Part shown: piece by piece, positions 31,332 to 37,165 of the stretch
Numbering within the stretch: position 1 is the first letter of the stretch
Layout: each line of letters opens with the position of its first letter
From: an uncultured Mycoplasma sp.
GTDB taxonomy: Bacteria > Bacillota_I > Bacilli_A > RF39 > UBA660
Reading direction: 5' to 3'
NCBI GenBank assembly: GCA_945947035.1
Contig: CAMEXD010000001.1
Span: forward strand, 1-64,000
DNA: 64,000 nt
Notes under the pieces: generated by a model
What the model was told of the DNA's origin: nothing
Seen by the model: the letters and a program-made list of their open reading frames with translations, nothing else
The model's database searches: none
Made by a program: the position numbers and the translations under genes

Positions 31332-31358
31332 TTATTCATATGATAAAAGGAGGTGCAT

Positions 31359-33248
31359 ATGAATAATAATTTATTTAATGACCTTGTTGTAGTTAAAAGA
31401 AGTGGACAAAGAGTTGGTTTTAATGAAGCTAAAATAGGACTTGCAATAAAATATGCATTTAATGATGTTGGGAATAAATACAACGAAAAAGAAATAAATA
31501 AAGTATATCAAGAAGTATTACAATATATTAAAGATAACTATAGAGATAGAAAAACAATTAATATTGAAGATATTCAAGATATCATTGAACTTATTTTAAA
31601 AGAAAAAAAATATTTAGATGTTTATGAATCATTTTATAACTATAGAACAAAACGAAGTGAATCAAGAAAAGCTTTTTCTTTAAAGAAAGAACATAAATTT
31701 GTTAAAGTAATTGAAAAAATAAATTCATCAACAGATTTTTCTAAAATTAATCCTGAAGAAGCATTATTAGATTTTGGTAAAATAATATCTGAAGAATACA
31801 CAAAATCATTTATTATTGATAATAAATATTTAAAAGCTTTTGAAGAAGGAAAAATATATATTCATGATTTATCATACTTTAATTTAGGATATATTTCTAA
31901 TGCTCATTTAATTCTTGATAAAGATAAAGAATTGAGTTTAAAAAGCATAACAAGTGAATTGTTAAATGCTAAAAAAGAAATAAATGGTGAAATAAATCTT
32001 GGAGATATTGATATTATCTTAAATAAATATCTAATAAATATATATAAACAAAAATTTGTTAATAACTTGGAAAAATATTTGAATTTGTATGGTTTTAATG
32101 ATTTTATAAATATAAAGAAAATAAATGATATAATTTTAAAACAAAATGAAATTCCAAATGAATTATCAATATTAAGTGATTATTTTATAAATGATCAAGT
32201 AAAAAGAATTATAACTCTTGCTCACTCTGATAGTAAAAAAGAAGCAGAAACAGAATTAGAAAAAGAAACTTTTGAATTCCTAAATACCTTAAATGAAAAT
32301 TATTTATCTAATAATAGTAAATATTCTATGTCTTTAGGACATGAAAAATCAGATTCTGGTATTTATATAATAAACATGGTATTTAATATTTTAGAAAATA
32401 TGGACTATTTAAAAAATGTAACAGTTATTTATAAAGCAAATAAAGAAATACCATCAAAGGTTTTAGAATTAATAGAAAAATGTAAAAATATAAAAATATC
32501 TAATAATAATTTTTCTTTAAATAATAATGGCAATATTTCATATTTTTCAGAAGGAGAAAGAGTATTTAGTTATGATGATAATACATCTTTAGGTAAAATG
32601 ATTATTAGTAAAACATCAATTAATATGGCAAGACTTGGACTTAAATACAAAAGTCTAAATGATGATTTTTTTAAAGAACTTGACGAGATTACAGAACTTG
32701 TTAAAAATGAATTATTATTTGTTTTTGAAGAAATAGGTGATAAAAAAACTGACAATTATAAAGTATTGTTTAAAAGAAATATTTTAGATGATGAAAAACT
32801 AGAAGAAGGTCAAAAAATTAGAAAAGTAATAAAAAATAGTACTTTAAATATTAATTTAATTGGTTTAATTGAATGTGCTTTAGTAATTGATAAAGAAAAT
32901 ATAAATGAAGTGATAGAAAAGATTCTTAAACATTTAAACAATAAAATCTATGATTTTTATCAAGAAACTAAACTTAATTTTTCACTTAGTGCCATAAATT
33001 ATGAAGAAGCTTCAAAAAACTTTATAGAAATTGATAAAGCACTTTATGGGGTTATAAATAAAATTACAAATAAAAATACTTATGAAGAATTATCAGTTGC
33101 GAAAAACATAAAAGACTTAGAAAATATAAGTAAATATCAAAAATATTTAAATGGTGGCAATAGTTGTGTTATAAATAATAAAAAATTATTAAAAGATGTT
33201 TTAAATTATGATATTTCTTTTATAAGTTTTGATGAGGATAGCTTATGA
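31359..33248 (+). CDS. NrdD-like protein without glycyl-radical site
   Basis: The 629-residue protein begins with an ATP-cone (about 8-100: VVKRSGQRVGFNEAKIGLAI). The rest follows the class III reductase fold: GKIYIHDLSYFNLGY (cf. MHIHDLSMLSGY in the active NrdD), FEFLNTLNENY, SKTSINMARLGL (cf. VVTINIPRIAYLA), NLIGLIECAL (cf. GLVGMNEACL). However the Cys-Cys active-site segment (MCCRLRLD in the partner) has no counterpart, and the C-terminus ends NGGNSCVINNKK with no RxxGY radical loop and no CxxC zinc site. It should be catalytically dead. It is first in an operon with nrdG and the intact nrdD, so a regulatory or assembly role is likely. ATG 31359 with AGGAGG 5 bases upstream. Confidence 0.8.
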   Translation: MNNNLFNDLVVVKRSGQRVGFNEAKIGLAIKYAFNDVGNKYNEKEINKVYQEVLQYIKDNYRDRKTINIEDIQDIIELILKEKKYLDVYESFYNYRTKRSESRKAFSLKKEHKFVKVIEKINSSTDFSKINPEEALLDFGKIISEEYTKSFIIDNKYLKAFEEGKIYIHDLSYFNLGYISNAHLILDKDKELSLKSITSELLNAKKEINGEINLGDIDIILNKYLINIYKQKFVNNLEKYLNLYGFNDFINIKKINDIILKQNEIPNELSILSDYFINDQVKRIITLAHSDSKKEAETELEKETFEFLNTLNENYLSNNSKYSMSLGHEKSDSGIYIINMVFNILENMDYLKNVTVIYKANKEIPSKVLELIEKCKNIKISNNNFSLNNNGNISYFSEGERVFSYDDNTSLGKMIISKTSINMARLGLKYKSLNDDFFKELDEITELVKNELLFVFEEIGDKKTDNYKVLFKRNILDDEKLEEGQKIRKVIKNSTLNINLIGLIECALVIDKENINEVIEKILKHLNNKIYDFYQETKLNFSLSAINYEEASKNFIEIDKALYGVINKITNKNTYEELSVAKNIKDLENISKYQKYLNGGNSCVINNKKLLKDVLNYDISFISFDEDSL

Positions 33249-33925
33249 AAATTGCAGGTTTTCAAAAATTATCATTATTAGATTATCCAAATCATATTTC
33301 ATGTATTATTTTTACTAAAGGTTGTAATTTTAAATGTCCATTTTGTCAAAATTCAAATCTTATAGGTATAGATAGCGATGATTTGATAAGTGAAGAAGAA
33401 ATATTTTGCTATTTAAATAAAAGAAAAAACATTTTAGATGGTGTTGTTATAACTGGAGGAGAACCAACAGTTCAAAAGGATTTAAAAGAATTTATTAAAA
33501 AAATAAAAAGTTTAGGGTTAAAGGTTAAACTTGATACCAATGGTTATAATCCTTATATTTTAAAGGAATTAATAGATGATAGTTTAGTTGATTATGTTGC
33601 AATGGATATAAAACATAGTATAGAAAATTATCATTTAATTGTTGGTAAAAACATAAATACAGATTACATTTTAGAAAGTATAAAAATACTTGAAGAAAGT
33701 AATATTGATCATGAATTTAGAACTACTATTATAAAAGAATATCACGATATAGATGACATTATAAATATAACTAAATTAATAAGTTTAGATACTAAATATT
33801 ATCTACAAAATTTTAGAAATAGTAGTAATGTTTTGGATAAAAGGTTACATGGATTTACAAGTGAAGAATTAGATTATATAAATTTATGTATTAAAGATGT
33901 TAGAAATAAAATAAAAATACGTTAA
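33245..33925 (+). CDS. nrdG: anaerobic ribonucleoside-triphosphate reductase activating protein
   Basis: Radical-SAM activase that installs the glycyl radical on NrdD. The 226-residue protein shows the Fe4S4 motif CNFKCPFC with Cys27, Cys31, Cys34 (CX3CX2C), then VVITGGEPTVQ and LDTNGYNP. Its length and start MKIAGFQKLSLLDYPN fit the NrdG2 type (TIGR02495-like) rather than the shorter E. coli NrdG. The start overlaps the stop of the upstream gene by 4 bases (ATGA), and nrdD follows 18 bases after the stop. Confidence 0.95.
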   Translation: MKIAGFQKLSLLDYPNHISCIIFTKGCNFKCPFCQNSNLIGIDSDDLISEEEIFCYLNKRKNILDGVVITGGEPTVQKDLKEFIKKIKSLGLKVKLDTNGYNPYILKELIDDSLVDYVAMDIKHSIENYHLIVGKNINTDYILESIKILEESNIDHEFRTTIIKEYHDIDDIINITKLISLDTKYYLQNFRNSSNVLDKRLHGFTSEELDYINLCIKDVRNKIKIR

Positions 33926-36268: not shown

Positions 36269-37165
36269 ATGTATGATTGTATAATAATTGGTGCTGGAAT
36301 TTCTGGAATGACTGCAGCGATTTATCTAAAAAGAGCAGGTAAAAAAGTTTTAGTTTTAGAAAAAGAAACCATTGGAGGACAGATTTCTTCTTCCTTAATG
36401 GTTTCTAACTATCCTGGTTTTATCTGTATTTCAGGACCAGAACTTATATCTAATATTTATGATCAATTAGTAAATTTAGATATTCCTCTTGAAATAGAAG
36501 AAGTAAAAAGTATTACCACTGACAAAATTAAAAAGGTAGCAACTGACTATAATACTTATGAAACAAAAACAATTATAATTTCAACTGGAGCAAGATATAG
36601 ACTTCTTAATTTACCTAACGAAGAAAACTTAATTGGCAATGGAATTCACTTTTGTGTAGCTTGTGATGGTGCTTTTTATAAAGACAAAGATGTTGCTGTA
36701 GTAGGAGGAGGAAATACTGCACTTGTAAATGCTTTATCTTTATCTGATATTTGTAAAACAGTTTACATAGTTCAAAATTTAGAAAAATTAACTGGCGAAA
36801 TTGCTTTACAAGAAAAGATAAAAGAAAAAGATAATATCATAGTTTTAACAAGTTCTATTGTAAAAAAAATAAATGGTGAAGAATCTTTAGAATCTGTTAC
36901 AATAGAAAAAGAAAAGAGTGAAGAAGAACTAAAACTAGATGGTATGTTTATATCAATTGGACTTGTTCCTCAAAATGAAATATTTAAAGATATAATAAAA
37001 CTTGATGAAAATAATTATATTGATTCAAATGATTGTAACACAAATGTAGAAGGCATTTTTACAGCAGGTGATTGTAGGACTAAAAAGTTTAGACAATTAA
37101 CAACAGCATCAGGAGACGGTACAACATCAGCACTTCTTGCAATAGATTATTTAAATAACAATTAG
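36269..37165 (+). CDS. trxB: thioredoxin reductase
   Basis: The 298-residue flavoprotein has the FAD motif IIGAGISGMTAAIYL, GGQISSS, the redox centre CVACDGAF with Cys129 and Cys132, the NADPH motif VVGGGNTA and the C-terminal FAD box GIFTAGDCR. It passes electrons from NADPH to a thioredoxin-like CxxC; here the obvious acceptor is the redoxin domain fused to NrdD, whose gene ends 3 bases before this start. No free thioredoxin gene is in the operon. Confidence 0.95.
   Translation: MYDCIIIGAGISGMTAAIYLKRAGKKVLVLEKETIGGQISSSLMVSNYPGFICISGPELISNIYDQLVNLDIPLEIEEVKSITTDKIKKVATDYNTYETKTIIISTGARYRLLNLPNEENLIGNGIHFCVACDGAFYKDKDVAVVGGGNTALVNALSLSDICKTVYIVQNLEKLTGEIALQEKIKEKDNIIVLTSSIVKKINGEESLESVTIEKEKSEEELKLDGMFISIGLVPQNEIFKDIIKLDENNYIDSNDCNTNVEGIFTAGDCRTKKFRQLTTASGDGTTSALLAIDYLNNN

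Follow-up and report, generated by a model that had tools for sequence, protein, structure and literature searches.

A catalytically dead NrdD at the head of an anaerobic RNR operon, a candidate trans-acting ATP/dATP sensor in uncultured Bacilli

What does an NrdD that has lost its catalytic residues do at the head of an operon that also encodes a complete NrdD? The question is raised by a stretch of 64,000 nucleotides (the window; contig CAMEXD010000001.1 of assembly GCA_945947035.1, an uncultured Mycoplasma sp. of GTDB lineage RF39; UBA660), which comes from a draft genome of 1.17 Mb that is about 71 % complete. Four codirectional genes lie in it in the order dead nrdD, nrdG2, active nrdD and a thioredoxin-reductase-like gene (Table 1). 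The initial annotation of the window had described the first as a catalytically dead NrdD paralog leading the operon, and had offered three guesses at its function: allosteric control, sequestration of NrdG or stabilization of NrdD.

The active NrdD of the operon is of the PRK08270 type, a subclass other than that of the dead NrdD, and is complete, with an ATP-cone, an MCCR finger loop (finger-loop classes MGCR and MCCR as in PMC9669993), zinc cysteines, a RITGY glycyl loop and a C-terminal glutaredoxin (Grx) domain. The thioredoxin-reductase-like flavoprotein is the probable electron supply for this Grx domain. No class I or class II RNR large subunit was found in the draft genome (about 71 % complete), in which the dead NrdD and the active NrdD are the only carriers of an ATP-cone.

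Table 1. Features of the nrd operon, with positions in the window
Feature	Position	Strand	Evidence
Shine-Dalgarno AAGGAGG of dead nrdD	31347..31353	+	sequence
Catalytically dead NrdD, 629 aa, ATG start, frame open	31359..33248	+	ORF, profiles, predicted structure
ATP-cone of dead NrdD	31386..31661	+	54.7 bits; ligands K13, R14, Y95, R99, R103 kept
RNR barrel core without NxN flap, beta-A Cys, loop 2, zinc site and glycyl radical loop	31677..33245	+	profiles, alignment, AlphaFold
Degenerate finger loop YFSEGERV (active relatives: YMGCRTR; thiyl Cys416 to E)	32541..32564	+	alignment
ATGA stop/start overlap of dead nrdD and nrdG2, translational coupling	33245..33248	+	sequence; same overlap in 22/44 relatives
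nrdG2, radical-SAM activase, 226 aa	33245..33925	+	TIGR02495 229.5 bits, cut-off 131
Active NrdD, 773 aa	33944..36265	+	NF006126 1146.8 bits; PF00462; residue table
Thioredoxin-reductase-like flavoprotein	36269..37165	+	PF07992 149.8 bits; gene order conserved

Fold and missing catalytic parts of the first gene product

The ATP-cone and the NrdD landmarks quoted in the initial annotation (IHDLSYFNLGY, SINMARLGL and NLIGLIECAL) are present. Profile PF03477 placed the cone on residues 10–101 (49.3 bits, cut-off 25.8), and the NRDD profile PF13597 gave 110.7 bits over profile positions 204–475 of 562; since the match ends at 475, the C-terminal part of the protein is missing. The score against the NrdD equivalog TIGR02487 was 85.5 bits, with a cut-off of 326. 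The structure prediction suggested at the outset gave a full barrel fold (AlphaFold2, 72-sequence alignment; pLDDT 89.4, pTM 0.87). Foldseek matched this model to class III RNR structures, with P. copri NrdD on top (E 5e-28, TM 0.68), which is consistent with an RNR/GRE barrel.

Residues were mapped onto P. copri NrdD (PcNrdD, 8P23; SEQRES number = paper number + 4), with residue roles taken from PMC11226230 and with the intact NrdD of a sister genus (L036; 647 bits to P. copri NrdD across its entire length) as a bridge. In the dead protein the beta-A cysteine, Cys171, corresponds to Asn and the thiyl cysteine, Cys416, to Glu, with neither MGCR nor MCCR in the finger loop. The NxN substrate flap and loop-2 Arg305 are absent, as are the zinc site (no CxxC; the C-terminal domain is missing) and the glycyl radical loop R-x-x-G-Y, which carries Gly711 and Tyr712 in PcNrdD (8P23/8P28). 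The reported absence of the active-site cysteine pair, the zinc CxxC and the radical loop was therefore borne out. T. maritima NrdD is active though no cysteine is seen at the finger-loop tip in its crystal structure (PMC4493059), and finger-loop variation by itself would not prove inactivity. It is the loss of the glycyl radical domain together with the active-site cysteines that, under the established mechanism, leaves the protein inactive, and on this mapping the first gene encodes a catalytically dead NrdD, a pseudoenzyme.

The ATGA overlap with nrdG was confirmed, the activase being of the NrdG2 type (TIGR02495). A frameshift or assembly error concealing a radical loop, against which the initial annotation had cautioned, was looked for and rejected: nrdG starts inside the stop codon, the orthologues are of similar length and no radical loop lies downstream. 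The other dead genes that were checked likewise have no R-x-x-G-Y after them.

A different arrangement was observed in sister genera, where the native formate-type NrdD appears from its reading frames to be a natural split glycyl radical enzyme. There, 50 of 63 intact-MGCR proteins stop just past the zinc site (12 are unsplit and one is unassigned), and the glycyl radical loop (GEGVxFERIRRITGYL...) lies on its own ORF of 47–64 aa, 1–51 nt downstream. These small ORFs occur in all three frames, usually with a purine-rich Shine-Dalgarno-like stretch, and nrdG generally comes next (loci include L039, L041, L043, L048, L144, L145, L196, L214 and L234). GrcA/YfiD, the spare part of PFL (PMC8683613), is comparable only to these split enzymes; the dead protein has no glycyl loop and the comparison is inapplicable to it. 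The dead NrdD does not resemble the large subunit of a split NrdD, having no MGCR and no zinc site, and nrdG2 overlaps its stop codon. Rescue by a separate glycyl-loop peptide is unlikely, as the thiyl cysteine is gone too; a search for such a peptide in the window's own genome, run without a positive control, gave no match.

Origin and gene neighbourhood of dead NrdDs

The survey took in 386 genomes belonging to the family, and GTDB contigs were scanned as well; nearly all sequences come from metagenome-assembled genomes. Record titles of the GTDB contigs name uncultured Bacilli, Mycoplasmatota, Tenericutes and Erysipelotrichaceae; rumen and gut are the source of many. In a mixture-model tree of 97 proteins (L281, identical to L242, was removed), the window-type dead proteins and their Clostridia relatives (dead-I) grouped together within the P. 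copri-like subclass, and a separate set (dead-II) fell inside another NrdD subclass, with an RTCGY loop. The branches separating dead-I from dead-II were well supported; placement within the groups is uncertain, with long branches and biased composition. A further protein, from a record titled Clostridia (L242:5980-8337), has Gly711 replaced by Ser (RKITSYLV) and Cys171 by Thr with Cys416 and the zinc site intact, and its genome holds an intact NrdD elsewhere. This is apparently a third, early case of the same loss. The label 'dead' required four changes on the tree, and well-supported branches force three of these, which indicates that catalysis was lost independently at least three times.

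Identity between the dead NrdD and the active NrdD of its operon is about 30 % over the cone and undetectable over the whole length. It is not a recent duplicate of that enzyme, since it falls in the P. copri-like subclass instead, and its sequence places its origin in a formate-type (MGCR, P. copri-like) NrdD. The initial description is thus upheld as to 'dead' and 'leading', while 'paralog' needs qualification: the gene is a formate-type remnant beside an NrdD of another subclass.

Window-type orthologues comprised 45 distinct ORFs from related uncultured Bacilli. In 44 of these nrdG2 follows directly (spacing −38 to +7 nt), and after the pair comes a Grx-fused MCCR-type NrdD, usually then TrxB. 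Close relatives that share this operon therefore have the gene as well, and the order dead nrdD–nrdG2–nrdD, which the initial annotation had proposed to check, is kept. By our count, 49 genomes have a Grx-fused NrdD at 71 % identity or more. The window-type dead protein occurs in 37 of them, and in two (L170 and L171) a dead-II gene stands immediately after trxB of an nrdG2-nrdD-trxB cassette. Of the others, three carry a truncated NrdD of a different subclass that stops short of the glycyl loop, six a second intact NrdD, and one, at a contig end, allows no assignment.

In six further genomes (L031, L110, L112, L114, L117 and L141) a window-type dead gene and an RMNGY-type NrdD stand head-to-head. 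At one locus (L138:2130-5256), where the contig ends, the place of the nrdG2 cassette is taken by a fragment of a native P. copri-like NrdD, 46 nt beyond the window-type dead gene. The dead-I genes of Clostridia lie apart from nrd genes, and most of those genomes have a full-length NrdD elsewhere. Dead NrdDs outside nrd operons were seen in Clostridia metagenome-assembled genomes L212, L216, L217, L220, L221, L232, L239, L247, L249, L251 and L257, with spo0A, an M23 peptidase, a pseudouridine synthase and DUF4116 proteins among their neighbours.

Selection and the ATP-cone

For close pairs, dN/dS of the dead NrdD was 0.10–0.22, like that of nrdG2 and trxB and higher than that of nrdD. The value for the window and a same-genus genome (G001/L024), 0.355, was left out because synonymous distances between them show recombination: dS was about 0.6 for dead nrdD and nrdG2, in contrast to 0.10–0.21 for nrdD, trxB and U32. 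The block of dead nrdD and nrdG2 (31359–33925) was probably exchanged by recombination between the window and G001 lineages.

Conservation was distributed differently in dead and active proteins. Mean pairwise identity of active native NrdD was lowest in the cone (60 %) and highest in loop 2 (95 %), with 68–79 % in the core. This pattern was inverted in dead-I (cone 64 %, core 30–44 %), and the same inversion was found in dead-II, of separate origin (cone 66 %, core 36–47 %). Active RTCGY-type NrdD had a cone (62 %) about level with the core (62–73 %). Purifying selection on dead NrdDs is centred on the cone.

Lys7, Arg8, Tyr83, Arg87 and Arg91 of the PcNrdD cone bind ATP/dATP (PMC11226230), and correspond in that order to the five ligands listed for the dead NrdD in Table 1. 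All five were invariant in the 81 dead NrdDs examined, every one of which lacks Cys416 and the zinc site. Of the 100 columns in the cone, ten were invariant, and the chance of all five named ligand columns being among them is about 3e-6. This suggests that the dead NrdD binds ATP/dATP through its cone.

The cones of active NrdDs are altered in places, with Arg87 replaced by His in most MCCR/Grx types and KKYKV or KRYKV in RMNGY types (for example L054, L110, L172 and L226). Judged from these changes, their own dATP control is possibly weakened. The idea that the dead protein makes good its partner's degenerate cone was not supported, as the same changes also occur without dead-I. No NrdR-sized ATP-cone gene was found in 40 genomes of the family or in the window's genome, so that RNR seems to be regulated in this family by means other than NrdR. 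The idea that dead NrdDs stand in for NrdR specifically in the lineages that carry them was rejected, since NrdR is missing from all 40 genomes, with or without a dead NrdD.

A sensor in trans and its rivals

Most simply, the dead NrdD can be read as a protein whose cone does the work. Allosteric control is favoured among the three initial guesses because none of the 81 dead proteins departs from the five ligands and selection falls mainly on the cone. The interpretation preferred here, to which a rough probability of 0.58 is given, is a trans-acting ATP/dATP-sensing pseudo-subunit, a former formate-type NrdD kept as a sensor beside a Grx-coupled NrdD. The MGCR enzyme would have lost its radical and substrate machinery as dNTP synthesis passed to the Grx-coupled MCCR NrdD with its nrdG2 and trxB, and the remnant would have been kept as an ATP/dATP-sensing subunit. 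It may associate with the active NrdD or with an NrdD–NrdG complex, contributing in trans its cone and possibly one half of a dimer, and may thereby shift the activity of the active NrdD with the dATP/ATP ratio. For example, the dead cone could pair with the cone of the active subunit and keep the substrate flap away. In S. thermophilus NrdD (9D3X; PMC12662201), which likewise consists of ATP-cone and barrel and is a model for cone dimers blocking the flap, dATP pairs the cones and keeps the substrate-binding connector off the active site; there, however, cone and catalysis are in one chain, whereas the dead chain would act in trans. In P. copri NrdD, tetramers are driven by dATP through cone–core contacts (PMC11226230).

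The evidence counted in favour consists of the cone ligands in 81 proteins, the conservation inversion, dN/dS, coupling to nrdG2, the dead-II gene beside the same cassette, the repeated losses, the absence of NrdR and two precedents, an ATP-cone on a non-catalytic RNR subunit (PMC5794259) and cone dimers that keep off the substrate flap (PMC12662201). Given that dead copies have at least three origins and were kept under selection beside a working enzyme, a separate regulatory subunit is probable. The biological setting fits a sensor, since an MGCR enzyme was replaced by a Grx-coupled MCCR enzyme in a family in which no NrdR was found. Counted against it are the active NrdD's own ATP-cone, usually with Arg87 to His even where dead-I is absent, the Clostridia dead-I genes unlinked to nrd, cassettes that have a second intact or truncated NrdD and no dead protein, a mirror-tree signal that leans to NrdG2 rather than NrdD, and the metagenome-assembled origin of nearly all genomes.

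Those unlinked Clostridia genes would also suit a nucleotide-sensing homodimer acting outside RNR, on transcription, replication or another enzyme, with the operon merely providing co-regulation, and so would a family without NrdR and a fast-evolving barrel core. However, nearly all Bacilli dead-I genes (44/45) are coupled to nrdG2, a dead-II gene joined the same cassette independently and no DNA-binding domain was found in the dead NrdD by domain search, which makes this unlikely. A chaperone or decoy for NrdG that governs NrdD activation is more doubtful still. Translational coupling to nrdG2 and exchange of the two genes as a unit between the window and G001 are consistent with it, as is a mirror-tree partial r of 0.47 with NrdG2 against 0.32 with NrdD, values confounded by adjacency and recombination; partner inference from this weak signal was abandoned. 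NrdG sequestration is made less likely by the loss of the glycyl radical domain, the part of NrdD on which NrdG acts, and would leave the cone-centred conservation unexplained.

Yeast Rnr4, a dead RNR subunit that pairs with an active partner, is a precedent and, with the predicted full barrel, lends something to a structural partner that stabilizes the active NrdD dimer and senses nucleotides only secondarily. This is improbable, however, given a fast-evolving core under a constrained cone and the low identity to the operon's active NrdD. A decaying pseudogene or artefact, which fast evolution and a 31 % amino-acid difference from G001 might suggest, is rejected, because decay cannot yield cone-centred conservation with ligands kept in 81/81, and the frame is open and of similar length in more than 50 genomes from many assemblies, with the low dN/dS given above and no downstream radical loop.

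The putative pseudo-subunit has partial likenesses among known systems. An activity master switch carried by a non-reducing subunit is known in class I, in the ATP-cone NrdB of L. blandensis (PMC5794259); this is a radical-generating subunit, not a dead catalytic one. The inactive R1 homologues of cytomegaloviruses (UL45, PMC5469499; M45) are relatives of the RNR large subunit in which catalysis gave way to regulation, but are viral, of class I fold and directed at host signalling rather than RNR. NrdR also uses an ATP-cone as ATP/dATP sensor to govern RNR supply; unlike the dead NrdD, which has 629 aa and no zinc ribbon, it is a short zinc-ribbon DNA-binding protein. No description of a dead or split NrdD was found in the open PMC set.

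More tentatively, at a little under even odds, catalytic-subunit pseudoenzymes (alpha-prime) may have evolved repeatedly when one anaerobic RNR subclass displaced another, and been kept only as trans ATP/dATP sensors governing an NrdD of another subclass. This would be a previously undescribed kind of RNR control. Control of RNR activity has been taken to reside in cones that form part of a working subunit or, in rare cases, of NrdB; the recurrent, selected dead NrdDs with perfectly kept ligands suggest that a sensor can survive the loss of its enzyme and act in trans. As dead NrdDs pass the Pfam NRDD cut-off, NrdD gene counts in gut, rumen and biogas genomes overstate the number of functional enzymes.
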